Below, piece by piece: positions 10,402-34,875 of a DNA stretch of 44,859 bases. Location: positions 1 to 44,859 of the forward strand of contig CAINND010000106.1 of the NCBI GenBank assembly GCA_903851035.1, read 5' to 3'. A program made the position numbers and the translations under genes. Positions within the stretch are counted from its first letter, which is position 1; each line of letters opens with the position of its first letter. This DNA is from an uncultured Acidobacteriota bacterium. GTDB lineage: Bacteria; Acidobacteriota; Terriglobia; Terriglobales; Acidobacteriaceae. The notes beneath the pieces are model-generated. The model was given only the letters and a program-made list of their open reading frames with translations, searched no databases and was not told the origin of the DNA.

Positions 10402-10404
10402 CGG

Positions 10405-14174: not shown

Positions 14175-14213
14175 GGCAACTCCCCGGCCCGGCCGTATTG
14201 CGGCCGATGCCGG

Positions 14214-14525
14214 CTAACCCTTCAGTAAGTCCACTTCGTCCATGTTGACCGTAGTGCGGTTGCGGAAGAAGGCGATAAGAATGCCCAGTCCCACGGCGGC
14301 TTCGGCGGCGGCGTCGGCGGCAATGAACAGGGCAAACACCTGGCCGTGCAGGCCGTACAGCCGGCTGAAGGCCAGAAGGTTCAGGTTCACCGCGCTCAGC
14401 ATCAGCTCAATGCACATAAAGATGATGACTACATTGCGGCGCGTGATGACGCCGATCAAACCAATTAAAAAGAGGATGGCGGCCACCATCAGGTAATGCA
14501 GCGTGCCGATCTCCAGCATTCTCAC
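14214..14525 (-). CDS. nuoK: NADH-quinone oxidoreductase subunit K
   Basis: A 103-residue protein with three transmembrane helices, the usual size of NuoK. Two membrane glutamates important for proton transfer are present, in [17 protein letters not shown] and in [17 protein letters not shown]. Its start codon overlaps the nuoJ stop by 4 nt (ATGA), indicating translational coupling. Confidence 0.93.
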
Positions 14526-16787: not shown

Positions 16788-17980
16788 CGGTCCACCTCTC
16801 CCAGCACGATGTCCAGGGTGCCGATGATGGCCACCACGTCTGCCACCAGGCTGCCCACGGCCATCTTTTCCAAGGCCTGCAGGTTGATGAACGATGGCGG
16901 ACGCACGCGCACGCGGTAGGGCTGCTGGGTGCCGTCGCTGACCATGAAGTAACCGAGCTCGCCCTTGGGCGCCTCGATGGAGTGATAGACCTCGCCGGCC
17001 GGAGGCTTCAGCACCTTGGGCAGCTTGGCAATCACCGGCCCTTCGGGCAAGCCCTCCATAGCCTGGCGGATGATGCGAATGGACTGCCGCATCTCCTCCA
17101 GCCGCACCAGGTAGCGGTCAAAGGTATCTCCGTTCTTGCCGATGGGAATGTCGAAGTCGAAATCCTCGTAGCTCGAGTATGGCTGTGCCTTGCGCACATC
17201 CCAAGGGATGCCGCTGCCGCGCAGCACCGGGCCGGTTATGGCGTAGGCGATGCAGTCTTCCGGAGAGATGTAGCCCACGCCCTTGGTGCGCTGCAGCCAG
17301 ATGCGGTTGCCGGTGATCAGGTCGCGGTACTCATCAATCTTCGGGCCCAGGTCGTCACAGATGTGCAGTACCTCGCGCGCCATGTCCGGGTAGGCATCCC
17401 AGCGGCAGCCGCCAATGCGGAAGGCGTGCGTGGTGAGCCGTGCGCCGCAGTATTTCTCGAAGATATTGAGGATCATCTCGCGGTCGCGGAAGGCGTAAAA
17501 GAGTGGCGTTACGGCGCCGATGTCGAGCACATGCGTGCCCAGCCAAACCTGATGGCTCGCCAGCCGGCACAGCTCGGTCAGGATGACGCGCAGGTATTGC
17601 GCCCGCTTGGGAACCTCGGCGGCCAGGAGTTTTTCTACGGTCAAACAGTAGCCCAGGCTGTTGCTCACGGCAGCCGTGTAATCCAGCCGATCCACAAAGG
17701 GACCGAACTGTGCCCAGGTACGGTTCTCGGCGATCTTTTCTATGCCGCGGTGCAGATAGCCGATGATGCACTCCAGCCCGTTCACCTTTTCGCCATCCAG
17801 CTTGAGCACCACTTGCAGCACGCCGTGCGTGGAAGGGTGCTGTGGCCCCATGTTCAGCACGATCTCCTTGGAGTCCATGAACGTGCGGCCGGGCTGTACT
17901 TCTTCCAGCGAGTCGTAGAATTGCGAATCGGAGAGTTGTGAATCCCGGGTTAGCGAATCGCGGAATCGTTCGTCGCTCAT
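16784..17980 (-). CDS. nuoD: NADH-quinone oxidoreductase subunit D
   Basis: A 398-residue peripheral-arm subunit of the [NiFe]-hydrogenase large-subunit lineage, forming the quinone site with NuoB and NuoH. Diagnostic motifs are [22 protein letters not shown] and [15 protein letters not shown]. The nickel-binding cysteines of hydrogenases are absent, as expected for complex I. The first 35 or so residues are a polar extension with loosely repeated DS-containing units. The start at 17980 is chosen because it forms an ATGA overlap with the nuoC stop; a longer frame begins at 18070 inside nuoC. Confidence 0.92.
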
Positions 17981-18573
17981 TGGCCACTCTCGATTCCCAG
18001 ATTTTTCTGCACCCAAGCCTGGTCTTGTAGTGAGGGCGCGTAATCCTTGCGCAGGGGGTGCCCCGTCCACTCCTCGGGCATCAGGATGCGGCGCAGGTCG
18101 GGATGCCCGGCAAAGCGCACACCGAAGAGGTCAAAGACCTCGCGCTCCGGCCAGTTAGCGCCCAGCCACAGATCGGTCGCCGATTGCACCATCTCGCCTT
18201 CGGCAAAGCGCGCCTTTACGCGGATGCGCTCGCTGGCCTGCATGTTGTAGATGATCCACACCAATTCGAACGGGCGCTCGTCCTTGGGATAGTGCACGGC
18301 GGTCAGATCGGTCAGGCTGGTGTAGCCGCAGCTTTCTTTCAGGTGGGCGAGCACGGCGTGCGCCGCCGCGCCTTCAACTGTCAGATAGTTCTGCCCGGCA
18401 TAGGTTGCGGCATCGCGAATCTGCTCGCCAAAGGCCTGTCGCAGCCCATCCACCAGCGCGCCCTGCCAGGGCACGGGGGCGGGCTTGGCGGCCACGGGCG
18501 GCGCGGCGGGTGCGGCAGGCGCTGCCGTCTCCGGCGTCGGGTTTGGCGGATTCCCCTCGGGAACTTCAGGCAT
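17977..18573 (-). CDS. nuoC: NADH-quinone oxidoreductase subunit C
   Basis: A 198-residue peripheral-arm subunit. The C-terminal half carries the family signature [22 protein letters not shown], followed by GHPLRKDY. The first 35 or so residues are an alanine/proline-rich tail of unknown role. NuoC and NuoD are separate proteins here, unlike the fused NuoCD of Escherichia coli. The gene follows nuoA after a 74-bp gap where nuoB would normally lie. Confidence 0.92.
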
Positions 18574-18647
18574 TGATCATGCTCCGGTATTCGATCCTGC
18601 GTACAGGCCGTTACTTCTCTGTCAGCGTCTTGCTAAATTCACCCCAG

Positions 18648-19004
18648 CTAAATCCACTCCAGCGCGCCCTTCTTCCACACCCAGGCAAAGCCCAGTACAA
18701 GAATGCCGAGAAAGACCAGCATCTCCACCAGGCCGAAGACGCCAAGCAACTTGAACTGCACGGCCCAGGGGAATAGGAAGATGGTTTCCACGTCAAAAAC
18801 GACGAATAAAATCGCGATGATGTAAAAGCGCACGGTGTGGCGCTGGCGCGAGCCTTCCTGCGCCTCAATGCCGCACTCGTAGGCCATCCCCTTCACCTTT
18901 TCCGGGTTGGAGGGACGCACCATCTTGGCGATGATCAGGGTTCCGGCGGCCACGGCAAAGGCCACCAGCAGAAAGACGAAGATCGGAATGTAGTTCTGTG
19001 GCAT
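18648..19004 (-). CDS. nuoA: NADH-quinone oxidoreductase subunit A
   Basis: A 118-residue, three-helix membrane subunit. The conserved YECGIE motif and the FDVETIFLFPWA segment are present. The start at 19004 gives a normal NuoA length; an upstream extension in the same frame would precede the membrane helix with 50 unlike residues. It is the first gene of the minus-strand operon nuoA-C-D-H-I-J-K-L-M-N. A perfect CRP-type palindrome lies about 160 bp upstream. Confidence 0.92.
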   Translation of the reverse strand: MPQNYIPIFVFLLVAFAVAAGTLIIAKMVRPSNPEKVKGMAYECGIEAQEGSRQRHTVRFYIIAILFVVFDVETIFLFPWAVQFKLLGVFGLVEMLVFLGILVLGFAWVWKKGALEWI

Positions 19005-19412
19005 AAGCTTTCGGCACCCCGCCGTTGCATCCCACATTTGCCCGTCGCCGTTTGCGGCACACTCCACGGGTGAAGCAAATTGCGCTTCCGGCCAATGGAT
19101 AATTCCGCGAAAAAAGGCTGGCGAAAAAGTGGAAAAACTGTACTGCCTGGACAAACCCCGAATCTGTGATTTTCGTCACAGAAAAAATTTGTTCGGCTGT
19201 CCGCCTGCATCCACGCACAACTGCGCTGGCGCATGGCGCGGCGCAATCAGTCGCTTCAGCACAACGGAAGCCACATCCCCACTTTGGCGAACTGGTGAGA
19301 TTACTACACGCCGTCCTTTTCGGCAGCAAATTCTTTCCACACGAGCGGCCCGGGTTGTAGGATTGGGGCGCCGGCGCCGCCAGGCGCAGGTCAAATGTGG
19401 GGAGGAACACCA
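19005..19412. promoter_or_regulatory. Divergent control region between nuoA and the methyltransferase gene
   Basis: No gene is visible in these 408 bp. The region holds a CRP-type operator at 19164-19181 and a possible minus-strand -10 box (TACAGT, 19137-19142). A weak plus-strand promoter is also possible for the methyltransferase (TTTCCA at 19334-19339, TAGGAT at 19358-19363, 18 bp apart). The segment at 19364-19390 is very GC-rich. Confidence 0.5.
19164..19181. promoter_or_regulatory. CRP/FNR-family operator upstream of nuoA
   Basis: The sequence is CTGTGA-TTTTCG-TCACAG, a perfect 6-bp inverted repeat that equals the Escherichia coli CRP consensus TGTGA-N6-TCACA. Read toward nuoA, a TACAGT -10-like hexamer lies 30.5 bp from the dyad centre, which would place the site near -42, the class II activator position. 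Two related sites lie at 20910 and 28200. Confidence 0.6.
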
Positions 19413-20114
19413 ATGGCCGATGCAGACGAGAAACTGAGAGTCGAGTTCAACCAGTGGGCCGCCGATGGCCGCGGCGAGGAGATGGAGTCCCATCACCTGT
19501 GCATTGCCCAGCCCATGTTCCAGCGCATGGCACTGGCGCCCGGCGAGCGCGTGCTCGACCTGGGCTGCGGCACCGGCTGGGCCACCCGCCTGGCCGCCCA
19601 CTCCGTGGAGGGCGGTCCCGGCATGGCCGTCGGCCAGGACATCAGCGAGGAGATGATCGCCCGCGCCCGCGCCGCCAGCGTGGATATCGAAAACGTCCTC
19701 TTCTCCACCGGCGCCGCCGACGAAATTCCCTGGCGCGAGGATTACTTCCACAAAATCTTCTCCATTGAGAGCTTCTACTACTACGCCGACCAGCAGGCCG
19801 TGCTGCGCGAACTGCTGCGCGTCCTGGCTCCCGGCGGACAGCTTTTCATCCTGATTAACCTCTACACCGAGAACCCCTACTCGCTGCGCTGGGTCAAGGA
19901 GTTGAACGTGCCGGTACACGCTCGCTCGGAGAAGGAGTACGTCAAGATGCTCTCCGAGATTGGCTTTGTAGATGCCGTCAGCGAGCGCATCCCCGACCCC
20001 ACGCCCACGCCGGAGACGTATAGCGGCAAGTGGTTTGCCAACGCCGAAGAGCTACGCGACTTCAAGCGCATCGGCGCCCTGCTGCTGGTGGCGCGCAAGC
20101 CTCCGGAGAAATAA
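19413..20114 (+). CDS. Class I SAM-dependent methyltransferase
   Basis: A 233-residue methyltransferase. Motif I VLDLGCGTGWATRLA is near residues 45-60, an acidic residue in GQDISEEMI follows, then a motif near AADEIPW and post-motif APGGQLFILINLY. ATG 19413 is preferred over ATG 19395 because GGGGAGGA at 19399-19405 is well spaced. The substrate is not evident; it resembles small-molecule methyltransferases of the UbiE/arsenite-methyltransferase type. It sits between nuoA (divergent) and nuoB (same strand, 106 bp downstream). A role in quinone methylation is possible but unsupported by specific motifs. Confidence 0.8.
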   Translation: MADADEKLRVEFNQWAADGRGEEMESHHLCIAQPMFQRMALAPGERVLDLGCGTGWATRLAAHSVEGGPGMAVGQDISEEMIARARAASVDIENVLFSTGAADEIPWREDYFHKIFSIESFYYYADQQAVLRELLRVLAPGGQLFILINLYTENPYSLRWVKELNVPVHARSEKEYVKMLSEIGFVDAVSERIPDPTPTPETYSGKWFANAEELRDFKRIGALLLVARKPPEK

Positions 20115-20977: not shown

Positions 20978-21238
20978 ATGGCGCGTGGAAGTGTGTCTAT
21001 AGTCGTTGAGCGGTGTAAAGCTTGCGGCTTTTGTGTTGAGTTTTGTCCCAGCAAAGTGCTGGCCCTTTCCGATGCATTCAATTCCAAGGGGTACCATCCG
21101 CCCCATGCCGTGAATCCCGACAAATGCAGCGGCTGCGATCTTTGCGGCATGTATTGTCCGGACTTCGCCATTCACGGCTACCGCCCCGGCAAGCCCGAAG
21201 CGGCCGACGCGGCGGAAAAAGAGAAGGAGGCCGAATGA
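20978..21238 (+). CDS. korD: 2[4Fe-4S] ferredoxin subunit of 2-oxoacid:ferredoxin oxidoreductase
   Basis: An 86-residue ferredoxin-like protein with two cluster motifs, CKACGFCVEFCP and CSGCDLCGMYCP, and a charged Ala/Glu/Lys tail. It corresponds to the delta subunit of archaeal-type and bacterial 2-oxoacid:ferredoxin oxidoreductases. It would pass electrons from the catalytic subunits to a soluble ferredoxin or directly to a partner. GAGGAGG at 20966-20972 sets the start. Its stop overlaps the next start (ATGA), so it is co-translated with the alpha subunit. Confidence 0.87.
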   Translation: MARGSVSIVVERCKACGFCVEFCPSKVLALSDAFNSKGYHPPHAVNPDKCSGCDLCGMYCPDFAIHGYRPGKPEAADAAEKEKEAE

Positions 21239-22398
21239 CGCACGCAGATCCCGTCGGCGTACTGACCGGAGCGCACTTCCTGGATGGCGACCACGCCGCC
21301 TGCGAAGGCGCCATCTGTGCCGGAGCACGCTTCTCCGCCGGATATCCCATCACGCCATCCACTGAGGTTGTCGAGCGCTTCAGCCATCGCGCGCCCAAGA
21401 TTGGCGCCACGTTCATCCAGATGGAAGACGAACTGGCGGCCTCCATCGCCATTCTCGGCGCCGTCTGGGGAGGCGTGAAGGCCTTCACCGTCACTAGCGG
21501 CCCCGGCTTCAGCCTGATGATGGAGCACATTGGCTACGCCGTGATGACTGAAACTCCCTGCGTGTTTATTGACGTGCAGCGCGGCGGCCCCAGCACAGGC
21601 CTGCCCACCCTGCCCGCGCAGGCAGACATGATGCAGGTCAAGTGGGGCTCGCATGGCGACTACGAGATCATCGCGCTCTGCCCCAACTCGCCGCAGGAGT
21701 GCTTCGACCTCACCATCAAGGCCTTCAATCTCTCGGAGAAGTATCGCGTGCCGGTCTTCGTCATGATGGATGAAGTCGTGGGCCACATGACGGAGAAGGT
21801 CGTCATTCCCCGCGCCGAGGAGATCGAGATTGAGCCGCGCCACTTCACCACGCAGGACAAGAGCAGCTTCCAGCTCTACGCGCCCGTGGGCGAGGAGCAG
21901 ACGCCGGAGATGGCCAAGGCCGGCGACGGCTACAAGGTGCACGTCACCGGACTGACGCACGATGAGCGCGGCTATCCCAACATGACGCCCGCCGTGCAGG
22001 AGCGCATGGTCAAGCGGTTGGTCACCAAGATTCGCGACAACGCCGAAAAGATCTGCATCACCGAACAGAATGAGGTAGAGGGCGCCGACGTGGTCGTCGT
22101 CAGCTACGGCATCACCTCTCGCGTGGCGCAGCGCGCCGTGGAAATGGCGCGCGCCAAGGGCCTGAAGGTGGGCACGGTGCGGCTGATTACCGCATGGCCA
22201 TTCCCGGATCACGTCATCCGCGCCATCGCCCCCAAGGTGAAGGGCTTTGTGGTGGCCGAACTTAACCTGGGCCAGATGGTCCGCGAGGTGGAGCGCTCGG
22301 TGGCAGGCAAGTGCCGCGTCGCCCACGTGGGCCATGCCGGCGGAACCGTGCACAAGCCCGAAGAAATCCTGAAGGCCATTGAGGAGGTGGCGCGATGA
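21235..22398 (+). CDS. korA: 2-oxoacid:ferredoxin oxidoreductase, alpha subunit
   Basis: A 387-residue alpha subunit. The pyrimidine-binding region of the TPP enzyme fold is recognisable (SAGYPITPSTE, then MEDELAASIAILGAVWGG and TSGPGFSLM), and the C-terminal transketolase-like domain follows. Separate alpha, beta and gamma proteins and the sequence style favour 2-oxoglutarate as substrate (KorA) over pyruvate, but 2-oxoisovalerate cannot be excluded. The reaction oxidatively decarboxylates the 2-oxoacid to acyl-CoA with reduction of ferredoxin. AGGAGG at 21225-21230 and the ATGA overlaps on both sides fix the start and end. Confidence 0.88.
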   Translation: MTHADPVGVLTGAHFLDGDHAACEGAICAGARFSAGYPITPSTEVVERFSHRAPKIGATFIQMEDELAASIAILGAVWGGVKAFTVTSGPGFSLMMEHIGYAVMTETPCVFIDVQRGGPSTGLPTLPAQADMMQVKWGSHGDYEIIALCPNSPQECFDLTIKAFNLSEKYRVPVFVMMDEVVGHMTEKVVIPRAEEIEIEPRHFTTQDKSSFQLYAPVGEEQTPEMAKAGDGYKVHVTGLTHDERGYPNMTPAVQERMVKRLVTKIRDNAEKICITEQNEVEGADVVVVSYGITSRVAQRAVEMARAKGLKVGTVRLITAWPFPDHVIRAIAPKVKGFVVAELNLGQMVREVERSVAGKCRVAHVGHAGGTVHKPEEILKAIEEVAR

Positions 22399-23276
22399 GC
22401 ACACCCATTTGTATTCAGAAGGCCCCGGAGAATCCGGTAGAGAGCTTCCTGCGCACCGACCGCATGCCGCACATCTGGTGTCCCGGATGCGGCATCGGCA
22501 CCACGGTCAACTGCTTTACCCGCGCGCTGATTGACAGCAAGACCGACCTCAACAAGCTGAGCATCGTCAGCGGCATCGGCTGCACCGGCCGCGTGGCTGG
22601 CTACGTCAACCTGGATAGCTTCCACACCACGCACGGCCGCGCCATACCCTTTGCCACCGGCCTCAAGCTGGCCAGCCCGGAGATGACCGTGGTGGTTTAC
22701 AGCGGCGACGGCGATCTGTTCGCCATCGGCGGCAACCACCTCATCCACGCCGCCCGCCGCAACGTGGATCTCAAGGTCATCTGCGTCAACAACCTTACCT
22801 ATGCCATGACCGGAGGCCAGACCGGCCCGGCCACCCCGCTGGATGTCATCACGGCCACGGCACCTTACGGAACTTACGACCCGGCCTTCAACCTGCCGTA
22901 CCTGGTCGAAGCAGCCGGCGCCGTGTACGTCGCACGCTGGACGACCTTCCACGTCAAGCAACTGGCCAAGTCCATGCAGGAGATGTTCAAGAAGAAGGGC
23001 TTCTGCTTTATCGAAGTCGTCTCGCCCTGCCCGACGCTTTACCAGCGCCGCAACAAGATGGGCGATGCGCTGGACACCATGAAGTTCTACAAGGAAGTCA
23101 GCAAGGTCAAGCACGGAGCGCCCACCAACGAGGTCGGCCTCAGCAAGAGCGGAGAGATCATCGTGGGCAAGTTCGTGGATCGCGAGCGGCCGGACTTTGA
23201 GACCATGATGAAGGCGCACCTTGAGGCGTCACTTGGAGAGAAATACATCCCGGCGGAGGCTCCCACATGCAGCTAA
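22395..23276 (+). CDS. korB: 2-oxoacid:ferredoxin oxidoreductase, beta subunit (TPP-binding)
   Basis: A 293-residue beta subunit. It holds the thiamine diphosphate/Mg motif starting GDGDLFAIGGNHLIHA and ending VNN. The cysteines of a [4Fe-4S] cluster lie in WCPGCGIG, GIGCTGR and the later CPTLYQR segment. It forms the catalytic core with KorA. It overlaps korA by 4 nt and korC by 10 nt, so the three subunits are made in a fixed ratio. Confidence 0.9.
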   Translation: MSTPICIQKAPENPVESFLRTDRMPHIWCPGCGIGTTVNCFTRALIDSKTDLNKLSIVSGIGCTGRVAGYVNLDSFHTTHGRAIPFATGLKLASPEMTVVVYSGDGDLFAIGGNHLIHAARRNVDLKVICVNNLTYAMTGGQTGPATPLDVITATAPYGTYDPAFNLPYLVEAAGAVYVARWTTFHVKQLAKSMQEMFKKKGFCFIEVVSPCPTLYQRRNKMGDALDTMKFYKEVSKVKHGAPTNEVGLSKSGEIIVGKFVDRERPDFETMMKAHLEASLGEKYIPAEAPTCS

Positions 23277-23863
23277 CTGAACTTCGCATTGCCGGCTTCG
23301 GCGGACAGGGCGTCATCATGTGCGCCAGCGTCATCGGCCGCGCCGCCTCTATTGTGGAGAACGGCTACGCCACCATGACGCAGAACTTCGGCCCGGAGGC
23401 GCGCGGTGGAGCCTGCTCGGCGCAACTCGTGCTCTCGCCCACGCCCGTGCTGTATCCCTACGTCAACAAGGCGGACCTGATGGTGCTGATGTCGCAGGAG
23501 GCCTACGTGAAGTTTGCGCAGGACATCAAGCCCGGCGGCACGCTCATCGTGGAGCAGGACCTGGTGCGTGTGCAGGGCCTGGACATTCCGGACGTCAAGG
23601 TCTTCGCCATTCCGGCCACGCGCATTGCCGAGGAGTTGGGCAAAAAGATGGTGCTGAACGTGGTGATGACCGGCTTCTTCGGCGCCATCAGCCAGCTCAT
23701 CTCGCGCGAGTCGCTACGCAAGGCCGTGCTGGATTCGGTGCCCGCGGCCTTTGCCGAGTTGAACGGCAAGGCCTACGACGCCGGCTACGAATACGGCCTC
23801 AAGCACATGCAGTCCGGCGCGCTCGACCTGGGCGAGGAAGACCCGGTCACCATCACGGAGTAG
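23267..23863 (+). CDS. korC: 2-oxoacid:ferredoxin oxidoreductase, gamma subunit
   Basis: A 198-residue gamma subunit of the pyruvate/2-oxoglutarate ferredoxin oxidoreductase family. The N-terminal GFGGQGVIMCASVIGRAA segment and the NFGPEARGGACSAQL motif are typical. The start at 23267 lies within the last codons of korB and has GGCGGAGG at 23252-23258. It completes the plus-strand korD-A-B-C operon. An imperfect hairpin at 23878-23902 without a T-run follows. Confidence 0.88.
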   Translation: MQLTELRIAGFGGQGVIMCASVIGRAASIVENGYATMTQNFGPEARGGACSAQLVLSPTPVLYPYVNKADLMVLMSQEAYVKFAQDIKPGGTLIVEQDLVRVQGLDIPDVKVFAIPATRIAEELGKKMVLNVVMTGFFGAISQLISRESLRKAVLDSVPAAFAELNGKAYDAGYEYGLKHMQSGALDLGEEDPVTITE

Positions 23864-24432: not shown

Positions 24433-25353
24433 CTACAGATGAATCCACCCGCTACGGATGAGTATCAGCATGATGGGGGCGACCAGCGCCCATAGCAGAA
24501 GCCCCTGGGCCAGCGGACGCACGCCAACCTGCCTTAGCGTCTGCCGCGAGAGTCCTGTGCCGATGAGGTAGAGCGTGACGGTGAGGCCAACGGTTCCCAG
24601 GTGTGCCAACGTTTGAAAAAGGTGAGCAGGCAGCGGCAGATAGCTGTTGGCCAGTGCTGCCAGGCAGAAGTATCCGATGAACCAGGGCCACTGTACCTTC
24701 GCCGTGCTTTTGCGGATGAAGGCCGAGACCATTGTCAGGGGGACAATCCAAAGAGCGCGCGCCAGTTTGACCGTGGTGCCGATGGCAAGTGCCGTGGCGC
24801 CGTACTTGGCCGTGGCTCCGACAACGCTACTGGTGTCATGAATGGCGAGGGCCGACCACAGACCGAACTGCTCCTGGGTTAAATGCAGTGCGTGGCCAAT
24901 CTGCGGAAAGGTGAGCAGTGCTACTGAGTTGAGCACGAAGACCGTGCCCAGGCTGACGGCCATCTCCTCGTCGGTGGCCTGCATGACAGGGCCGACGGCG
25001 GCAATGGCAGAGCCTCCGCAGATGGCCGTGCCTGTGGTGATGAGGAATGACGACGTCTTTGGAACGCGTAGCAGCCAGCCTATCAGGCGGCCCGCCAGCA
25101 TAATCGCGAGAATGCTGATTGCCGTATAAAGGAAGCCTTCGGTGCCGGTGCGCACCACCTGGCGCAGGTTCATTCCAAAGCCAAGCGCAACAACAGAGAT
25201 CTGCAGAAGAAATCGCGAGAGCTTGCGTGCATCCAGATGATAGGGGTGGGGGACTGTGAGGCCGTAAAGCAATCCGCCGGCCAGGGCCAGCGGTGGGGAG
25301 ATGAGTCCGCTGGCAGCCAGAATCATCCCCACAAAAAAGACATTCTTCTCCAT
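24433..25353 (-). CDS. yeiH: YeiH/UPF0324-family putative sulfur-anion exporter
   Basis: A roughly 306-residue membrane protein with about ten hydrophobic helices. Family signatures include VVALGFGMNLRQV, the glycine-rich TGTAICGGSAIAAVGPV and HDTSSVVGA. Members are annotated as putative sulfate exporters, and Escherichia coli YeiH is linked to sulfite handling through the LysR regulator YeiE (from memory). ATG 25353 is preferred over a TTG 36 bp upstream that has no ribosome binding site, although the GGAG before 25353 is rather close. It is the third gene of the minus-strand run mccA-rhodanese-yeiH, 102 bp after the rhodanese-like gene. This supports removal of toxic sulfite or a sulfur product. 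Confidence 0.8.
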   Translation of the reverse strand: MEKNVFFVGMILAASGLISPPLALAGGLLYGLTVPHPYHLDARKLSRFLLQISVVALGFGMNLRQVVRTGTEGFLYTAISILAIMLAGRLIGWLLRVPKTSSFLITTGTAICGGSAIAAVGPVMQATDEEMAVSLGTVFVLNSVALLTFPQIGHALHLTQEQFGLWSALAIHDTSSVVGATAKYGATALAIGTTVKLARALWIVPLTMVSAFIRKSTAKVQWPWFIGYFCLAALANSYLPLPAHLFQTLAHLGTVGLTVTLYLIGTGLSRQTLRQVGVRPLAQGLLLWALVAPIMLILIRSGWIHL

Positions 25354-25455
25354 GTCTCCATTGTGCGGCAGGAATTCGACGGGCGCCAATCACTATTCAT
25401 GATGAGTGATTTGCCGTGAATGTAGCCTGTTTGTGCCATGCCGCCAAAGCGGCGG

Positions 25456-25878
25456 CTAGTGCTTGGCGTCCTTCTCCACGGGAAGGCCTGCCAGCACCCA
25501 TCCGCTTATGCCATCGGGCATAACGAAGACCTTGCTGTAGCCGAGTTTGACGGCCTCGTGGGCAGCGGAATGGCTGGCCGAGCAGCGGCGGTTATAGCAG
25601 TAAAAGACAACGGTGGCCTGGTGATCAGCGGGGAGAAAACTCTGCAGCTGCTCGCTAGTGACCCACACCGAACCGGGCACATGGTACTGGGCATGCACCT
25701 CGGGTTCGTTGCAGTCCAAGAAGAAAACTCCGGGCTTGCCGTGCAGCGCATTGGCCTCACGCAGGCTGACCGTCTGGTACTGCTCGCCTTCCACGGGCGT
25801 GGAGGCCAGCAAAGGGATTGCGGTAACCAAGAGCGCGGCCAGGGCCAGCGCAAGCAAAGATAGTTTCAAAATTCGCAT
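25456..25878 (-). CDS. Secreted single-domain rhodanese-like protein
   Basis: A 140-residue protein with an N-terminal signal peptide (hydrophobic core LSLLALALAALLVTAIPLLAS) and one rhodanese domain. The active-site loop reads YCYNRRCSAS, with the sulfur-accepting cysteine and the arginine four residues later, as in PspE-type periplasmic rhodaneses. The start at 25878 has GGAG four bases upstream; a longer frame from 25935 would put 19 polar residues before the signal. A periplasmic sulfurtransferase beside a periplasmic sulfite reductase could move sulfane sulfur, for example thiosulfate to sulfite. It lies 78 bp after mccA. Confidence 0.82.
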   Translation of the reverse strand: MRILKLSLLALALAALLVTAIPLLASTPVEGEQYQTVSLREANALHGKPGVFFLDCNEPEVHAQYHVPGSVWVTSEQLQSFLPADHQATVVFYCYNRRCSASHSAAHEAVKLGYSKVFVMPDGISGWVLAGLPVEKDAKH

Positions 25879-25956
25879 CGATCTCCACATCTGAAAGCGA
25901 GATGGGACGGCGTACGGCAGGATCCGCCGCCCCAATCTCTCAGGAGGTTACATCCA

Positions 25957-27972
25957 CTACTTCTGTGCCACCTGCTTGTTCAGCAGGATGGCGTTAGCGC
26001 CCTTGGCCAGCACTTTGGCCTCGTTCACCTTTTGCAGGGTGTACTCAGGAGCATGCACGCCCCAGGAGCCGTCCTTCTGCACGCTGTCGATGCTGGCCTG
26101 CGCCTGGTTGAGCATGACCTGCACCTGGGCGCGCTGCGTGTCGGTCAGCTTGGCATTCATCAGCCTCGATGTTGCCAGCGTCAACTGCGTTTTGACCTCG
26201 GCGACGCCTTCTTTGACGGGCTTCTGCCAAACCATGACGCGGTCGTAGATCATCTTCTGGTTGGTGAACTGCAAAGGCTTGGGCTGTGCGCTCTGCGCCG
26301 GGCTGTGGCAGCCACCGGCCTCAAGCACGTTGCCGTCACTAAAGCTGGTGCGGCCGCAGGACCACATCAGGTCAATGTAGGGCTTGCCGTTCTTCTTGGC
26401 CAGGCGCCAGGCACCATCCTTGAAAGTGCGGTCTTTACCCGGCGGAGGATTGAGCGTCTTCTCCTCGGGATCCACGTTGATCTTCCAGATATGGGCCGCA
26501 CGAGTGTTGTCAAAGCCACCGTAATCGGGGTACTGGATGGTGTTGAAGTTCTCGCAGCTCATCATGACGGGCATATGGCAACTGGTGCAGTCGTGGCCGT
26601 TATGCACATTGCTCTGCTTGGCGTAGCTAGCCTGCTCGGTGTGGCAGTCCTGACAGTTTTTCCGCAGGCCGGGCTTGGTGAAGGAATCCTTCCAGTCGTT
26701 CTGCGTGACCTCGTGCGGATCGTGGCAGGTGCCGCATCGCATGCCCTTTTCATAGTGAGCGGTGTTGTACGCCTGCGAGCCTTCGGTGCCGCAGCTGGGG
26801 CACTTGCTCTTAAAGTACGAGCTGAAGGGCTTGTCGGGATTGGCCTTGGCTTCGTCGCCGTTCCAGGCAAAGCGCTGATGGCAGCGCTCGCAGTTGCTGG
26901 GCATGCCGGCGCCGCGCGCGCCCACCAGGTGAGCTCCCGCGCCGTGGCATTCTTCGCAGGTGATGCCCTTGTTGATGGTGTGCTTGCGCAGTTCTTCGGG
27001 CTTGCCAAGCGCGGCCATCAACTCCTGCTGGCTCTTGAAATCAAACTTGAAGCTGTGGCAGACCTCGCAGTAGCTGGTGGCGGGCTGGAAGAGCATGGCC
27101 TTGCGATTCTTAGCGCCATAGCTGGTCATGCCCCATACCTTGCTGCCGTTGTCGCCGAAATCTTCAATCTTAGTGGGGAAGCCCGGAACGTAGGCGGCAA
27201 TCTTCTGCGCCATCTCCGGCGTAAGCGACTCCGCCCAGTGGTGGCTGTGCTGGTTGCCACCGGCGACGAGTTTGCCGGTGCCATCCTTCAGCATGCCGTC
27301 CTCGATGTGATACGTTCCGCGGACCAGCCACTTGTCGATGAATCCATACTTGGTGCGCGGCGTGCCGATGATGGCGAAAACGTCATCCTTCGTGATGCCC
27401 TCGGGCAGCACAGCGGCCTGTGAACCATAGAGCGGCTTGTTCAGATCTTTATTGGGGACTTCCACCATCTCATCGGGGAAGCGGACCACCTTGGCGTGGC
27501 GGGATTTTTCCCACTTGCGATACTGCGCGGGATGGCACTCGCCGCATTTTTTGGCGCCGACAAAATTATTGGGCAAGTCAAGGATGGACTCCATGCCCAG
27601 GCGATACGTCATGGCCACCTGCTGGTTGTCGTTCGCCTTGGCGTACTCCTTGCCGCCGCCGAAGTCTACAAACTCCTCCTCGCGGTCGCTGATGGAGTAC
27701 TTGCCGACCAATCGGCCTTCCTTCTCATACTTGAAGATGGGGTGCGAGCTGAGCAGCAGCTTGTAGAAGTCCTTCTCCTGCTCGACGTAGCCCTCCAGAG
27801 TGCGGGGCTTGTCAGATTCTTTCTCTGCGTGCTGGCTTGGGGCGTGGGATGCAACTGGCATTGCGAGTTGCGTGCCGGGCTTAGCTTCCGGCTGTGCGGG
27901 GGTTTGCGAGAATGCAAACGCACCCAGAACCACGAGCAAAATGCCCGCGGCAAGGCAACGAGATGAGCGCAT
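25957..27972 (-). CDS. mccA: Octaheme c-type cytochrome, MccA/SirA-like sulfite reductase
   Basis: A 671-residue exported multiheme cytochrome with a signal peptide over residues 1-22. Seven classical CX2CH motifs are at C143, C302, C339, C361, C413, C440 and C462. An eighth unusual motif, CX15CH, runs from C539 to C555-H556. Seven CX2CH plus one CX15CH is the signature of MccA/SirA, the heme-copper sulfite reductase of Wolinella and Shewanella. Extra cysteines C391, C394 (a CPSCG segment) and C473 are candidates for the copper ligands. It should reduce sulfite to sulfide in the periplasm. AGGAG precedes the start. No membrane electron-donor genes and no dedicated heme lyase are in the window. 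Identification is by motif pattern, not alignment. Confidence 0.75.
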   Translation of the reverse strand: MRSSRCLAAGILLVVLGAFAFSQTPAQPEAKPGTQLAMPVASHAPSQHAEKESDKPRTLEGYVEQEKDFYKLLLSSHPIFKYEKEGRLVGKYSISDREEEFVDFGGGKEYAKANDNQQVAMTYRLGMESILDLPNNFVGAKKCGECHPAQYRKWEKSRHAKVVRFPDEMVEVPNKDLNKPLYGSQAAVLPEGITKDDVFAIIGTPRTKYGFIDKWLVRGTYHIEDGMLKDGTGKLVAGGNQHSHHWAESLTPEMAQKIAAYVPGFPTKIEDFGDNGSKVWGMTSYGAKNRKAMLFQPATSYCEVCHSFKFDFKSQQELMAALGKPEELRKHTINKGITCEECHGAGAHLVGARGAGMPSNCERCHQRFAWNGDEAKANPDKPFSSYFKSKCPSCGTEGSQAYNTAHYEKGMRCGTCHDPHEVTQNDWKDSFTKPGLRKNCQDCHTEQASYAKQSNVHNGHDCTSCHMPVMMSCENFNTIQYPDYGGFDNTRAAHIWKINVDPEEKTLNPPPGKDRTFKDGAWRLAKKNGKPYIDLMWSCGRTSFSDGNVLEAGGCHSPAQSAQPKPLQFTNQKMIYDRVMVWQKPVKEGVAEVKTQLTLATSRLMNAKLTDTQRAQVQVMLNQAQASIDSVQKDGSWGVHAPEYTLQKVNEAKVLAKGANAILLNKQVAQK

Positions 27973-28268: not shown

Positions 28269-29171
28269 ATGGAAAACTTCCGACTCAAAGTATTCCGCAG
28301 TGTCTGTGAGCAGCTCAGCTTCCGCCGGGCCGCCGAAGAATTGCACCTCAGTCAACCGGCCATCACGCAGCAGGTAAAAGCGCTGGAGGACGAGCTGGGC
28401 ACACGCCTGTTTGACCGTACCGGGGGACGAGTGGTGCTGACCCCGGCTGGACGCATCCTGAAAAAGCGCGCCGCGGAACTGGCCGAATTGGCCGCGCGTA
28501 CCCAGGAGGAGATTGCCGCCTTAAGCGGAGAGCATTCCGGCCTGCTGAGCGCCGGTGCCAGCACCAGCATTGCGCAGTACGTGCTGCCGCGCATGCTGGG
28601 CGACTTTAAGCGCCAGCATCCCAAGGTCAAGCTGCAAATACGCAGCGGCAACACGGAGCAGGTGGTGGAGTGGCTGGTGGAAGGGCGCATCAGTATCGGA
28701 TTGATCGAAGGACCAGCCCTGCGCAAAGACCTGCGCGTGGAACCATTCATGGAAGATGAACTGGTGCTGCTGTTTCCTTCCGGCCATCCGTGGAGCAAGC
28801 GCAAAGAACTGACCGTAGAGGACCTGAAGGGCGCGCAGTTCCTGCTACGCGAGCGCGGCAGCGGCACGCGCCGCGTGCTGGAACTGGCACTGGAAAAGGC
28901 CGGATTGAAGATGCGTGAGATCGATGTGGTGATGGAGCTGGATTCGAGCGAGGCCATCATCAGCAGCGTGGAACTGGGCCTGGGTATTGGCTTTGTGACA
29001 CGTGCTGCCGTGCTGCCCCGGCTGCCCCTTGGCAAAATTGCCACGGCGCGCATCAAAGGGCTGCATATCCCGCGTAACTTCTCCTTTGTCTACCCGGCGG
29101 GACCCAAGCCGGATGGACTTGCCGGAGCGTTGCGCAAATTCACTCTGGAGGAGTCGGCGCGCTGGCGGTAG
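28269..29171 (+). CDS. LysR-family regulator, probably of the sulfite module
   Basis: A 300-residue LysR-type regulator. The N-terminal winged helix-turn-helix spans residues 1-60 (FRRAAEELHLSQPAITQQVKALEDELG), and a two-lobed effector domain covers about 90-295. It is transcribed divergently from mccA across a region with a LysR-type dyad, the standard arrangement for a regulator of the adjacent operon. The sequence style and the presence of yeiH in the target operon suggest a YeiE-like sulfite sensor; CysB-, CbbR- and YeiE-type proteins are hard to separate by eye. The ribosome binding site is weak (GGGGG). Confidence 0.85.
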   Translation: MENFRLKVFRSVCEQLSFRRAAEELHLSQPAITQQVKALEDELGTRLFDRTGGRVVLTPAGRILKKRAAELAELAARTQEEIAALSGEHSGLLSAGASTSIAQYVLPRMLGDFKRQHPKVKLQIRSGNTEQVVEWLVEGRISIGLIEGPALRKDLRVEPFMEDELVLLFPSGHPWSKRKELTVEDLKGAQFLLRERGSGTRRVLELALEKAGLKMREIDVVMELDSSEAIISSVELGLGIGFVTRAAVLPRLPLGKIATARIKGLHIPRNFSFVYPAGPKPDGLAGALRKFTLEESARWR

Positions 29172-29235: not shown

Positions 29236-29275
29236 ATTTTAAAAATAAAGCAGCCAGCGGGAGCGCCGCTGGCTG
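29236..29275 (-). terminator. Rho-independent terminator of the split-Soret cytochrome gene
   Basis: On the minus strand a perfect 10-bp stem (29251-29260 with 29266-29275) and a 5-nt loop are followed by CTTTATTTTT. It lies between the converging lysR and cytochrome genes. Confidence 0.8.
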
Positions 29276-29303: not shown

Positions 29304-30086
29304 CTAAATACCGTGACCAGCCTTAATCTGCACCTGATGGCAACCACCACATTCCATTTTGGCGCGGATATTCTCCACCATCCCGCCCTTTTCGTGGCAG
29401 GTGGAACAGTTCTGCGTCTGAGTGGACTGTGCCAGGCCAGCCATCATTTTGCCGGCGGCCTGCTCGTTGAGCAGCATAACGGTTTTGCGCGCCACGGAAG
29501 CGGTCAGGGTGCCGCAACGTTCCACCCGCTCGGGTGAGTAGGCCTTCTTCCCGGCCTTTTTGCACCAGTGTGCGATGGACTCATGGCAGAGCGGCGTACC
29601 GGCCGCCGAACGAATCTCAGGAAACTTGGCGCCCTTGGGATAGAAGTTCGGCAAAGGCTCCGTCTCGTACCAGGACATCAGGGTATCGATTACGGGATTG
29701 GGATTTGGCGAAAGCAACTGGATCGCCGCCAGGCTGCCGTTCAGCGCGCCGCACAGCGTACCCCAGCCATTCGCGCCGCCGGCGCCGTACTTGAACATCA
29801 TGAATGGGAAGCTCTTGTAGGGGTCGCCGAGCTGCTCGGCCACGGGACCCACAATGGCCTCAAACGAGCCGTACATGCAGTGCCCCTTCAGATAGGACTC
29901 ATAGGCGCGCTGGCCAGCCACTTCCGGGTCAATCGCCTTATAGGGCCACGGAGTCTGGGCCATCGGACTAGCCGAGGCCGCAGGAGAAGAGGTTGGGGTG
30001 GAGGCAAAGAGGCTGACCGCTGCACCGGCACCGGCAAGGCCCCCGATCAGTGTGACCAACTGACGACGATTCAAGGAAGAAGACAT
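29304..30086 (-). CDS. Split-Soret-type diheme cytochrome c, C_GCAxxG_C_C family, Tat-exported
   Basis: A 260-residue protein. The N-terminus has a twin-arginine-type signal (NRRQLVTLIGG) with an Ala-rich cleavage region. The middle carries the spaced cysteine pattern of the C_GCAxxG_C_C family (GHCMYG, TLCGALNG, PLCHESIAHWC), likely binding an iron-sulfur centre. The C-terminus has two close CX2CH heme motifs, CSTCH and CGGCH. This combination is that of split-Soret cytochrome c known from Desulfovibrio, whose physiological role is not settled. Its own promoter region is shared with the divergent cysteine synthase gene. An electron-transfer role with MccA is conceivable from location only. 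Confidence 0.75.
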   Translation of the reverse strand: MSSSLNRRQLVTLIGGLAGAGAAVSLFASTPTSSPAASASPMAQTPWPYKAIDPEVAGQRAYESYLKGHCMYGSFEAIVGPVAEQLGDPYKSFPFMMFKYGAGGANGWGTLCGALNGSLAAIQLLSPNPNPVIDTLMSWYETEPLPNFYPKGAKFPEIRSAAGTPLCHESIAHWCKKAGKKAYSPERVERCGTLTASVARKTVMLLNEQAAGKMMAGLAQSTQTQNCSTCHEKGGMVENIRAKMECGGCHQVQIKAGHGI

Positions 30087-30259
30087 ATAAATAAACTCCG
30101 CGATAGGCGATGCCTACACGCGTTAAGGATGGTCCGAAACACCAGGTGTGTCCAGATGAAATTAGTAATCAGCGATTCGCTGAGCTTATCGAAGCTTGGA
30201 TGTGTGGGGTTACCTTTGCAAGCGCGACAAAGAAGTATTATAAAAGTTGCGCAATTACT
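30087..30259. promoter_or_regulatory. Divergent region between split-Soret cytochrome and cysteine synthase
   Basis: It contains AGCTT-ATCG-AAGCT, a perfect dyad at 30183-30196. The 11-base core CTTATCGAAGC (30185-30195) also occurs in the mccA/lysR region at 28177-28187, suggesting a common regulator. TTGCGCAA lies just before the cysteine synthase start. No clear Shine-Dalgarno is seen for that gene. Confidence 0.4.
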
Positions 30260-31309
30260 ATGAGTGTCCTTCCTATGACCGACATCGCAAGTAGTGCCCG
30301 GTTCGCGGGACTCGCGCCAATGGTTGGCAACACTCCGTTGTTGAAAATTGCATTTGAGTTCCGCGGCCGCCAGCGCTTTCTCTACGCGAAGTCCGAGCAG
30401 CTGAGTCTTACCGGCAGCATCAAGGACCGCATGGCGCTGCACATCCTGCGGGAGGCCTATCGCGACGGCCGCATCCATCCCGGAGACACCATTGCCGAGG
30501 CCACCAGTGGCAACACCGGCATCTCATTTGCCGCCATCGGTCGGGCGCTCGGCCACCCGGTCAGAATCTTCATGCCGGACTGGATGAGCAGCGAACGCCA
30601 GGGCCTCATCCGCAGCTACGGTGCGGAGATCGTACTGGTCAGTGCCGAACAGGGGGGCTTCCTCGGCAGTATTCGCCTCTCCGAAGAATTTGCCGCCAGC
30701 CGCACGGATGTGTTTCTTCCGTGCCAGTTCTCGAATGCCGCCAATGCCGAGGCGCACGAAACCACGACCGGTCCGGAGATATGGGCGCAGTTGGAATCCG
30801 CTGGAATTTATCCGGATGCATTTGTCGCAGGCGTCGGTACCGGCGGAACCGTGATGGGAGTGGGGCGCTGCCTCCGCGCTCACAATCCGGCAATCAGAAT
30901 TCATCCCGTCGAGCCGGCCGAGTCTCCCACCATCTCCACCGGGCACAAAGTGGGCAAACACCGTATCCAGGGCATCTCGGACGAGTTCATCCCAGCAATT
31001 CTGGACCTATCTCTCGTGGATCCGGTCATCGCGGTATCGGACGGCGACTCGATCCTGATGGCACAGAAGCTGGCATCCAGTCTTGGCCTTGCCGTGGGCA
31101 TCTCCTCAGGATGCAACTTTCTGGCCGCCTTGCAGGTGCAGGAAGAACTTGGGCCGGAGGCTGTGGTTGTCACCGTCTTTGCCGACGACAACAAAAAGTA
31201 CCTGAGCACCGACCTGATGCACGTTGAGCCGGTGCGCTCCATGTACCTCACGCCGGAGATCACGCTGACAGGAATGTCGGCGCTGCCGCGCGTTTGTAGC
31301 TTTTGTTAG
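30260..31309 (+). CDS. PLP-dependent cysteine synthase family protein
   Basis: A 349-residue fold-type II PLP enzyme. The PLP lysine is Lys55 in [10 protein letters not shown], the phosphate/substrate loop is SGNTG at 83-87, and the glycine loop [10 protein letters not shown] follows. It joins sulfide to an activated serine (O-acetylserine or O-phosphoserine) to make cysteine. The protein ends in a CxxC (VCSFC), unusual for CysK/CysM and possibly metal- or sulfur-binding. The start at 30260 is chosen because upstream in-frame codons cover the promoter region; ATG 30275 is an alternative, and neither has a good ribosome binding site. Beside a sulfite reductase it would capture the sulfide formed. 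Confidence 0.85.
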
Positions 31310-31860: not shown

Positions 31861-34800
31861 ATGGATAAGCAGCGCTTTGTAATTTTCAGTCTTTTAGTTG
31901 CTCTCCTGCTGTGTATGGTTTTACCTTCCCTGGCACAAGGCCAGAAGTCAATCCAACCCATCCCCGCCTCCATCAAGAGCAACGCCACCACGGGTGGCAT
32001 CACGGGATCGTATGAGTGGTCGCTGGTGGCGCAGGCGACGCCGGACGAGTGCTTTTCTGGAAACGCCAACAATGGTCTGACGCCCGCGCAGGTTCAGGCC
32101 AACAATGCGTCCTTCCTTTCCAATTACCCTGCCGGACTCTCTGCCTCCAGTCTTCAGTCCTGCATTGCCGGGGGATCGCTGCCCAAGGTGAACCAGGCTT
32201 ACGTCTGGGGCATGACCATGACCGGTAACCAAATCTGGTACGGTACGGCGGCGAACGTCCTATGCCTGGTGGAAGACACTTTCTACGGATCCGTGCCGGC
32301 GCCTTTCGAAAACAATTCCTGGGTCTGTGACTTGAATGATGGTGAAGACTTCAAACCGCCGCGCATGTTTATGTATGACACCGGCGCCAACACCCTCACC
32401 GATTTAACGCCCAGCATCATCGCCGGAGGAGATCTCACCCTGTTGAAGTCCGTGGTAGGCATCCGCTCCGCGGGCAACTTTAACGGCATTGTCTTTTTTG
32501 CAGGCATCAGCCGGGGTGCCAATAAGACAAGCCCAGTGGCCATGTTTGCCTTCAATGCGCAAACGCAGCAATACCTGGGCTCGTATCTGTATGACGGGCA
32601 GACGCACACTGATGGCACGCATCCCTACTACAGTGACATCCGCCAGTGGAAGGTGGTTCAGAACCAGCTCTTCACCGGTGTAGGAATCCCCGGCGGCGGC
32701 TTGATGCTGCTGTGGACAGGATCGCTGGCTGCGCCGTTCTCGTTTACGCCCGTGGGACAGCTGGCAGGTGAGCCTGCCTATTTTGTTGCCCACACCGATG
32801 GACATATCTATGTGTCCACCTGGGGGTCGGCCGGGAACTCCTATGGCATGTCGCTATACATGAGTCCCACGCTGCATGCTCCAACTGGTTTGGATAGCAC
32901 GGATCTGAATAACTGGACCGAAGTATGGAACCTGAATGATTATGAGGTGGAACCTTCTGCCGTGCAGGTGGGCGGTGCCATCGAATCATTTGGCGGCTAT
33001 CTATATTTCGGCACCATGCAGGTTCCGGGCACCGGAGTTGTGGCCTTTGAGAAACTGTATCCAGGAGTGCCGACGGACAACACGACGTTCCTCAATACGT
33101 ATCGCGCGATTGCCATCTTCCAGTCGGCCGGCTTTGATCCTTCAGTCGTCACCACTCCGCCGGTGCAATTGTTGTATGGCAGCGCCACGCTGGAACAGTA
33201 CAACGCCGGCACAAATACATGGAGCTCAGTGCCCAACAACATGGGACAGTCGCCCACATATGGTGCGGCCGGCTTTGGAAATCCTTTCAACAACTACACA
33301 TGGGCCATGAAGGTCTTCCAGAACCAGCTTTACGTAGGCACCATGGATTGGTCCTACCTTGCCACCAATGCCGGCGAGTCTACACAAATACCAGCGGCAA
33401 TCCTTACTATAGCTCCGGCATTCTATGGCGCTGACCTGTGGATGTTCAGTGACACGGGCAGCGCGGCCATCCCTATCAGCATGGATGGCATGGGCAACTA
33501 CACGAGCTATGGCATCCGCAACATGGTGGTCGGCAATAACGCGCTATGGCTGGGCATGGCGAACCCGATGAACCTGCGGACTAACCAGAGTAACTATCCG
33601 GGCGGATGGAAGTTGATCGATTTTCCGACGCAGACCGGACAACCGGTCGTCACCTGGACGAATCCCGCTGATATTACCTACGGTACTCCGCTGAGCGCGA
33701 CGCAGTTGGATGCCACGGCAAACGTGCTGGGCGCGTTCACCTATTCGCCTCCGGCAGGTACGATGCTGTCAGCCGGGCAGGCACAGGTGCTTTCCTCCAC
33801 GTTTACGCCCGCCAACAGCGGCAACCAGTACAGCAACACGGTAAGCATCAATGTAGATAAACAACCGCTGGTCGTGACCGCCACCAGCGCATCCATGGTG
33901 TATGGCACTACGCTGCCAATCATTACGGGAACGCTGACAGGCGTGGTGAACAATGATGGCATCACCGCATCGTTCTCCACTACCGGCACCAACAGCAGTC
34001 CGGTGGCCCAATACCCCATCACGGCTACTCTTATTGATCCCAACAACAGACTGGCTAATTACGCGGTGACAAATACCCCCGGCACACTTACCATTCAGCA
34101 GGCCGGCACGAATTCACTGCTCTCCGCGAGTGCCACATCGTTGTTAGTGCAAAACACTCTGACTCTGCGGACACAAACCGCTTCGACAACAACCGGTACT
34201 CCGACCGGCACGGTCACATTCAATGACGGAACAACAACCATCGGTTCTGCATCGGTCGATGGGAGCGGGATGGCTACAATTTCCGTCAGCACCCTGGCCG
34301 CCGGAACGCACTCCATCACTGCAACCTACTCAGGCGATACCAACTTCAAGGCTTCCACGACATCGGCCATAAGCGTGCTGGTGCAGGACCTTGTGTTGGC
34401 GCCTGCATCTGGCGGGAGCGTCTCGATCACTACACGGCCGAATGGGACAGCCGTTTTCAACCTCCAGATTAACCCCATAGATGGAACCACATTCCCCGCC
34501 GCGGTTACATTTACTTTATCCGGGCTGCCTGCTAGCTGGAGCTATTACATCAATCCGGCTGTAATTCCAGCTGGTGCCGGTGCGCAGGCGGTCAATGTCT
34601 ATGTAAATGTGGGGTCGAACACAGGCAGCGTTTCCAAAGTACGTACGGGACTGCTGTTTGCCGCGTTGCTGCCAATCTTGGGGTTGGTGAGCCTCAAACG
34701 CCGGTCGAAGGCAGTCATCATGTCTCTGCTGTTCATTCTGACGCTGTTTATCGCAATGTTCGGGATGGTCTCCTGCAGCGGCAGTTCGGCAGCGCCGGTC

Positions 34801-34875
34801 ACCTATCCGCTTACGTTGACCGCAACCAGTGGCCCATTACAGCGGACGATCAGTCTTTCACTAACAGTTCAATAG
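31861..34875 (+). CDS. Large secreted protein with Ig-like repeats and C-terminal membrane anchor
   Basis: A 1004-residue exported protein. A signal peptide ends near residue 25 (SLAQG). Residues 30-590 are rich in Gly, Tyr and Trp with recurring WxxxxxxNQLxxG-type strands, suggesting a beta-propeller-like fold of unknown function. A MBG/YGT-type Ig-like domain begins near residue 595 and a Big_3-type Ig-like domain (GTPTGTVTFNDG, GTHSITATYSGD) near 750. After a further beta domain come a hydrophobic segment and basic stop (ALLPILGLVSLKRRSK), a second hydrophobic helix, a Cys-Ser-rich turn (VSCSGSS) and a short beta tail. This tail layout is common in acidobacterial surface proteins. The ligand is unknown. 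Confidence 0.75.
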   Translation: MDKQRFVIFSLLVALLLCMVLPSLAQGQKSIQPIPASIKSNATTGGITGSYEWSLVAQATPDECFSGNANNGLTPAQVQANNASFLSNYPAGLSASSLQSCIAGGSLPKVNQAYVWGMTMTGNQIWYGTAANVLCLVEDTFYGSVPAPFENNSWVCDLNDGEDFKPPRMFMYDTGANTLTDLTPSIIAGGDLTLLKSVVGIRSAGNFNGIVFFAGISRGANKTSPVAMFAFNAQTQQYLGSYLYDGQTHTDGTHPYYSDIRQWKVVQNQLFTGVGIPGGGLMLLWTGSLAAPFSFTPVGQLAGEPAYFVAHTDGHIYVSTWGSAGNSYGMSLYMSPTLHAPTGLDSTDLNNWTEVWNLNDYEVEPSAVQVGGAIESFGGYLYFGTMQVPGTGVVAFEKLYPGVPTDNTTFLNTYRAIAIFQSAGFDPSVVTTPPVQLLYGSATLEQYNAGTNTWSSVPNNMGQSPTYGAAGFGNPFNNYTWAMKVFQNQLYVGTMDWSYLATNAGESTQIPAAILTIAPAFYGADLWMFSDTGSAAIPISMDGMGNYTSYGIRNMVVGNNALWLGMANPMNLRTNQSNYPGGWKLIDFPTQTGQPVVTWTNPADITYGTPLSATQLDATANVLGAFTYSPPAGTMLSAGQAQVLSSTFTPANSGNQYSNTVSINVDKQPLVVTATSASMVYGTTLPIITGTLTGVVNNDGITASFSTTGTNSSPVAQYPITATLIDPNNRLANYAVTNTPGTLTIQQAGTNSLLSASATSLLVQNTLTLRTQTASTTTGTPTGTVTFNDGTTTIGSASVDGSGMATISVSTLAAGTHSITATYSGDTNFKASTTSAISVLVQDLVLAPASGGSVSITTRPNGTAVFNLQINPIDGTTFPAAVTFTLSGLPASWSYYINPAVIPAGAGAQAVNVYVNVGSNTGSVSKVRTGLLFAALLPILGLVSLKRRSKAVIMSLLFILTLFIAMFGMVSCSGSSAAPVTYPLTLTATSGPLQRTISLSLTVQ

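Follow-up and report, generated by a model that had tools for sequence, protein, structure and literature searches.

An MccA-type octahaem cytochrome c in a rewired genomic setting in an uncultured member of the Acidobacteriota

Background

Octahaem sulfite reductases and split-Soret cytochromes have been described before, as have rhodaneses beside SirA-like octahaem cytochromes (Dethiobacter, PMC10376724). The unusual CX15CH haem of such reductases is attached by specialised lyases, CcsA1 in Wolinella and SirEFG with CcmI in Shewanella, according to one study (PMC6976685), and a review holds that CX15CH cytochromes are accompanied by dedicated lyases wherever they are found (PMC10663686). A review on NrfD lists 51 gamma- and epsilonproteobacterial species with the membrane protein MccD (PMC8076601). 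Here we analyse a stretch of 44,859 nucleotides (the window), contig 106 in an acidobacterial genome of 3.26 Mb (G000, 98.9% complete), which encodes an MccA-type protein, and compare it to these systems.

Data sets

G001, G002 and G003 are congeners of G000, the first with MccA and the other two without; G200 is an Oryzomonas MAG and G395 is a further sampled member of the Acidobacteriota. Neighbour counts were obtained by tblastn over 45 fetched mccA loci, among which L005 and L102 have an upstream flank of just 2.3 and 1.4 kb. Campylobacterial neighbourhoods were examined for 21 of the 37 carriers in the 56-63% identity group and for 18 of the 48 in the 47-52% group. Whole-genome lyase searches covered G000 to G003 and G200 to G202.

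Results

Table 1 Features of the window. Positions refer to the window. Residue numbers refer to the MccA-type protein. Signals marked by eye were recognised by inspection.
Feature	Position	Strand	Remarks
YeiH-like (Cons_hypoth698) membrane transporter, distant	24433..25389	-	108 bits vs cut-off 232.6 (TIGR00698)
Rhodanese-like protein, export signal (by eye), CX4C loop CYNRRC	25456..25935	-	True start probably downstream of listed TTG
Octahaem cytochrome c gene of mccA type (671 aa); export signal at the N-terminus (by eye)	25957..27972	-	Motifs, 4rkm homology, alignment, dN/dS
CX15CH haem site, C539 to H556	26305..26358	-	CX15-18CH in 47/47 MccA; active-site haem by homology
C473 codon	26554..26556	-	Aligns with 4rkm chain position 507
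C394 codon	26791..26793	-	Aligns with 4rkm chain position 411
C391 codon, extra cysteine of CPxCG motif	26800..26802	-	27/47 MccA, none Wolinella-type
Divergent LysR-type regulator	28269..29171	+	Nearest NCBIfam model: selenium-metabolism-associated LysR, 244.3 bits vs cut-off 250; next YeiE, 197 vs 480
Terminator-like hairpin between split-Soret gene and lysR	29251..29275		
Split-Soret cytochrome c homologue (260 aa) with two CXXCH motifs and RRQLV as Tat-type signal (by eye)	29304..30086	-	C_GCAxxG_C_C domain, 1h21 homology
Cysteine synthase (CysK/CysM-type PLP enzyme)	30110..31309	+	Cluster membership uncertain

Identity of the octahaem cytochrome

The first-pass annotation had described the protein as an octahaem cytochrome with the MccA/SirA signature, and our analysis confirms this. 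The first cysteines of the seven CXXCH motifs are residues 143, 302, 339, 361, 413, 440 and 462, C539-X15-C555-H556 is present, and the sequence has no CXXCK and eight CH motifs only. In a phmmer search of PDB sequences the window ORF matched Wolinella MccA (4rkm) with E=1.4e-195 over residues 33-659, and the eight haem sites were collinear, which excludes chance as the source of the motif match. The remaining three PDB sequences at E<=1 were weak haem-motif matches; NrfA was not among these four, and the protein is not assigned to the NrfA family. The match to 4rkm is full-length, and the protein lies inside the MccA tree. By its sequence the protein belongs to the MccA/SirA octahaem family, where we file it, and the enzyme very probably reduces sulfite to sulfide. 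Pfam and NCBIfam gave generic or sub-cut-off multihaem names only, so that automatic annotation would overlook it. The ratio dN/dS against the congeneric copy (81% identical) was 0.17, which indicates that mccA is under purifying selection.

All 47 aligned MccA sequences share every cysteine and histidine of the eight motifs, and in the campylobacterial rows the loop corresponding to X15 has 17 or 18 residues. Apart from the haem motifs the window protein has cysteines 391, 394 and 473, and C6 in the signal region. The first three had been proposed as candidate Cu(I) ligands. For two of them the alignment agrees with the proposal: C394 and C473 are likewise invariant in 47/47, and the 4rkm positions with which they align are 96 residues apart, the same spacing as that of Cys399 and Cys495, which we take to be the published Cu(I) ligands of Wolinella MccA; a constant offset of 12 thus accounts for both pairings. 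In this alignment C394 and C473 are the counterparts of those ligand cysteines, and they would hold a Cu(I) at the active site. C391, which sits three residues ahead of C394, is by comparison an additional cysteine; the position is C in 27 of the 47 sequences, G in 19 (all of the Wolinella-type rows) and H in one (G395). Copper delivery by NosL was considered and rejected: NosL is absent from G000 and G001 and present in G200 and G395, and it does not explain how copper would be delivered. An AlphaFold2 model from a five-sequence alignment was unusable (mean pLDDT 36.8), and what would place C539 and C555 near enough to each other for one haem is the alignment with 4rkm.

Distribution and phylogeny

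MccA was found in 2 of 200 relatives (G000 and G001), in 2 of 396 sampled Acidobacteriota (G000 and G395), in 1 of 395 genomes of the phylum of the Oryzomonas MAG, in 86 of 298 Campylobacterota and in 2 of 279 Pseudomonadota. Of the 86 campylobacterial carriers, 37 show 56-63% identity and 48 show 47-52%; the last one has a broken fragment (G1090:C33:65487-65957; 160 residues with 39% identity, interrupted by 10 stops), an apparent gene loss. No MccA relative was seen among the plasmid or viral-contig sequences searched.

In the maximum-likelihood tree of 47 rows the enzymes of the window, G001, Oryzomonas and G395 form one subclade (100/100), and this subclade of four joins 21 campylobacterial enzymes in a 25-row clade (100/100) whose members come from Acidobacteriota, Geobacteraceae and Campylobacterota. 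The 19 Wolinella-type rows, 4rkm included, form a separate clade (100/100), and the pseudomonadotal L006 is a long branch of unsure placement. The Oryzomonas enzyme is 72% identical to that of the window. Misbinning of the Oryzomonas contig was rejected as the explanation: its tetranucleotide correlation is 0.86-0.92 with other contigs of its own genome, and nine stretches from G000 and G001 (one of them the window) give 0.64-0.76. The contig is therefore compositionally native, and transfer between phyla is likelier than misbinning.

Neighbourhood of mccA

Queries with MccB, MccC, MccD and CcsA1 had matches in 18/18 Wolinella-type loci, and MccC and MccD lie beside mccA in both pseudomonadotal loci. 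In the 25-row clade tblastn at the locus level found MccC/MccD beside mccA in none of the 25 loci (0/21 campylobacterial, 0/4 acidobacterial/geobacterial). The first-pass annotation had seen neither membrane partner nor lyase in the window, and indeed tblastn with MccB/C/D, SirB/C/D/E and CcsA1-type queries gave no match there at E<=1e-4. Since the window and the other three subclade loci showed no MccC/SirC and no MccD/SirD by tblastn, the quinol module of an Mcc/Sir respiratory operon, and no dedicated lyase was recognised, we do not file the window system as such an operon; it probably works like one.

A stripped-down version, one of the two readings offered earlier, is too simple a description, as the absence of MccC/MccD beside mccA extends to the whole clade and other conserved neighbours, which the first-pass annotation had not linked to the cytochrome, are found there. 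The order in the window and in G001 is lysR (divergent), mccA, rhodanese, yeiH-like, and in G200 it is split-Soret gene, mccA, rhodanese and a 36-aa yeiH-like piece (L139 8641-8748), as would be left if yeiH had decayed in a block of like order. A stand-alone rhodanese adjoins mccA in three of the four acidobacterial/geobacterial loci (window, G001 and G200) and in both pseudomonadotal loci; tblastn found none near mccA in G395 or in the 18 Wolinella-type loci. The CX4C loop is kept in all four stand-alone rhodaneses aligned (window, G001, G202 and G200). In Salmonella sulfite is bound by YeiE, and YeiH makes the cells resistant to it (PMC12880088), and the lysR-mccA-rhodanese-yeiH-like block of the window may accordingly be a sulfite-responsive cluster, whose regulator and exporter are distant YeiE and YeiH relatives scoring below the cut-offs.

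The block is flanked by genes for complex I subunits, of which one Proton_antipo_M protein and one NADHdh protein were typed, and by a cluster for a 2-oxoacid:ferredoxin oxidoreductase (12051-16787 on the minus strand, and 21043-23863). A 1004-aa protein with Big_3_5 (bacterial Ig-like) and MBG domains is encoded at 31861-34875, within a lower-GC stretch (0.55-0.57).

The campylobacterial members of the clade have a different neighbour. In 21/21 of these loci mccA is directly followed by the gene of a fusion protein, about 670-700 aa long, that unites a rhodanese-like domain with six CXXCH motifs and a membrane cytochrome b (e.g. L106 10357-12429); tblastn found it in 0/18 Wolinella-type loci. 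It looks like an unnamed replacement quinol oxidase partner. In 14 of the 21 fusions G or A takes the place of the cysteine in the rhodanese loop, and 7 retain it (the L127 row of the rhodanese alignment, which is not an MccA neighbour, was excluded from this count). This suggests that in the campylobacterial fusions the domain probably serves docking and not sulfur transfer.

Candidate electron donors

The split-Soret cytochrome of the window was assigned by its C_GCAxxG_C_C domain, its two CXXCH motifs and its homology to Desulfovibrio 1h21 (E=1.4e-35, residues 47-251, both CXXCH covered); its NCBIfam score was 183.9 against a cut-off of 400. Such a cytochrome is encoded in all four carriers of subclade MccA (G000, G001, G395 and G200) and is absent from the MccA-less congeners G002 and G003 and from G202, which has MccC/D. 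It was found in 14 of 396 Acidobacteriota. Both copies at >=60% identity belong to the two MccA carriers (hypergeometric P=0.0012 for both carriers having the cytochrome, with n=2 genomes only), and the other 12, at 35-42% identity, constitute a second subtype in sampled Acidobacteriota without detected MccA (e.g. L179 9021-9827 and L183 8910-9983). The gene lies directly upstream of mccA in G200 and elsewhere in the genome in G001 and G395. In the window it is outside the mccA operon, as lysR and the terminator-like hairpin intervene, and owing to the hairpin it is probably a transcription unit of its own. Both the intervening elements in G000 and the separate location in G001 and G395 count against a fixed partnership with MccA. 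The 12 more distant copies in Acidobacteriota without detected MccA weigh on the same side. The literature search yielded no paper linking a split-Soret cytochrome with MccA among the matches listed, and the portions of the literature covered give no role for split-Soret cytochrome c. We tentatively regard this protein, at somewhat less than even odds, as the most likely last electron carrier to MccA in the acidobacterial/geobacterial subclade.

The second reading offered earlier was that the partners are encoded elsewhere. NrfD-family proteins do occur at five places in G000, but the genome searches speak for dedicated partners being absent. One of these modules could oxidise quinol and feed MccA in an ordinary MccA respiration to which the split-Soret cytochrome is unrelated, and Fe-S proteins 26-30% identical to SirC/MccC do adjoin NrfD-family genes in these regions. 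However, the best MccD match by tblastn was 24% identical (E=6e-6) and confined to one of the five regions, whereas true MccD/SirD from different phyla share 52-54% identity; four of the five places have similar matches in the MccA-less G002 (five in all); and MccC/D are missing beside mccA throughout the 25-locus clade. We consider such an ordinary respiration unlikely. A cytochrome b pair of G000 resembling the fusion partner (on C2) was not preferred as quinol module either, as it is present also in G002 and has only a 32% match in G001. That either the NrfD-family proteins or this pair could be the quinol module is counted against the preferred reading, namely a route through the split-Soret cytochrome.

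Haem attachment

Following a suggestion of the first-pass annotation, the genome was searched for a dedicated lyase, and none was recognised. G000 encodes four Cytochrom_C_asm proteins: a CcmF/NrfE-type protein of 691-694 aa whose gene adjoins CcmH, a CcsB of 483-486 aa, a weaker CcsB-like protein of 280-301 aa and a protein of 233 aa on C59, where the typed neighbour is an ABC ATPase scoring as CcmA. None of them is encoded near mccA. The MccA-less G002 has the same four by size (690, 481, 275 and 238 aa), where equality was judged by Pfam match and size and the comparison covered lyases with a recognisable Cytochrom_C_asm domain. G003 has neither a CcmF-sized protein nor MccA and is neutral in this respect. 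The CcmF of G000 is 38% identical to SirE of L171 over 359 aa. The protein encoded beside CcsB (L121 7348-8826) is a probable ResB by clustering and a weak match, with no NCBIfam match at 1e-10.

As no dedicated lyase was found in this 98.9% complete genome and the lyase set equals that of the MccA-less congener, we would assign attachment of the CX15CH haem to a general lyase, either CcmF/CcmH or CcsB, a conclusion that we hold to be somewhat better than even. The CcmF/CcmH pair would be the simplest candidate. In the campylobacterial flanks a CcsBA-type lyase match was present in 13 of 21, with weak ones counted (in L112 110 aa aligned).

Physiological role

No protein of the NIR_SIR family (siroheme sulfite/nitrite reductases) was found in G000, G001 or G200 by genome search, for which the control was positive in 11/14 genomes, and MccA is therefore the only sulfite reductase recognised in those genomes. 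This would fit a role of MccA mainly in sulfite detoxification or in supplying sulfide for cysteine synthesis, with periplasmic sulfide fixed in the cytoplasm by the neighbouring cysteine synthase, and so would the cysteine synthase gene adjoining the block in the window and a regulator and YeiH-like exporter suited to a sulfite response. On the other hand, the cysteine synthase gene is not beside mccA in the other three acidobacterial/geobacterial loci, and G395 has a NIR_SIR protein besides MccA. Such a role is possible in our opinion, with the odds against it.

The true substrate might also be another oxyanion, such as selenite, nitrite, or a sulfur intermediate like thiosulfate delivered via the rhodanese. 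The best model for the window LysR is the selenium-metabolism-associated one, just under its cut-off; rhodaneses are found repeatedly among the neighbours, and in Dethiobacter one is reported to adjoin distant SirA-like octahaems (PMC10376724). Against this, the active-site cysteines and the CX15CH-type site are as in sulfite reductases in 47/47 sequences, and the cysteine replacement in 14/21 campylobacterial fusions means that a sulfurtransferase step is not general. We find another substrate quite improbable.

Discussion

The window protein is truly of the MccA type and its genomic setting is rewired; for electron donor, lyase, copper and activity we infer the following. The proposal as a whole, which we consider likely, is that of an exported MccA-type sulfite reductase in a sulfite-handling cluster, fed without MccC/MccD and matured by a general lyase. 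The enzyme would carry out the six-electron reduction of sulfite to sulfide at the CX15CH haem, next to a putative Cu(I) on C394/C473 and at a predicted extracytoplasmic location. The cluster would consist of the divergent LysR regulator, mccA, the exported rhodanese and the YeiH-like exporter. Enzymes of the 25-row clade would have to receive their electrons by another route than adjacent MccC/MccD; the last carrier may be the exported split-Soret cytochrome in the subclade of the window and the membrane-bound rhodanese-hexahaem-cytochrome b fusion in its campylobacterial sister. G395, which lacks both C391 and a rhodanese near mccA, counts against the proposal. A further-reaching version, in which a partner-switched third lineage combines a split-Soret donor (a first function for that cytochrome), a general lyase and copper perhaps on C391, C394 and C473, seems doubtful to us.

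The acidobacterial/geobacterial branch appears to break the rule of a dedicated lyase, and it belongs to a clade of 25 loci without MccC/MccD at the locus. The literature covered describes neither a partner-switched clade nor a missing lyase nor a split-Soret association. If functional, the system would offer natural material for asking what the X15 loop demands of a lyase, how an NrfD module can be replaced and what a split-Soret cytochrome does. It would also mean that MccA reduces sulfite in Acidobacteriota genomes in which searches for a siroheme sulfite reductase found none, and surveys based on dsr genes would overlook this route.

Comparison with known systems

Compared to mccABCD-ccsA1 of Wolinella, the window protein is collinear with 4rkm over residues 33-659 and shares the eight haem sites, both presumed Cu cysteines and the CX15CH motif, whereas its gene has no adjacent MccB, MccC, MccD or CcsA1, the protein has the extra C391, and the neighbours are a rhodanese, a YeiH-like protein and a LysR regulator. 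With the sir operons of Pseudomonadota (L171 and L006, and Shewanella SirA by literature) it has CX15CH, C391 and an adjoining stand-alone rhodanese in common. In contrast to the window, L171 and L006 have SirC, SirD, SirB and a CcmF-type SirE next door, and their enzymes are 50-52% identical to the window protein. L171, from the pseudomonadotal G1507, contains two nearly identical tandem sirA-rhodanese-FKBP-TPR-sirC-sirD blocks (7516-13304 and 13724-19501), with CcmF/CcmH-type genes on the opposite strand.

The campylobacterial MccA of the shared clade (100/100) resemble the window protein in C391, in an adjoining rhodanese-like domain and in lacking MccC/D, and they differ in their membrane-bound fusion partner, in CX17-18CH and in the CcsBA-type lyase match of 13/21 loci. 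Finally, the split-Soret cytochrome of Desulfovibrio desulfuricans (1h21) has a homologue in the window, but the copy in the window accompanies MccA.
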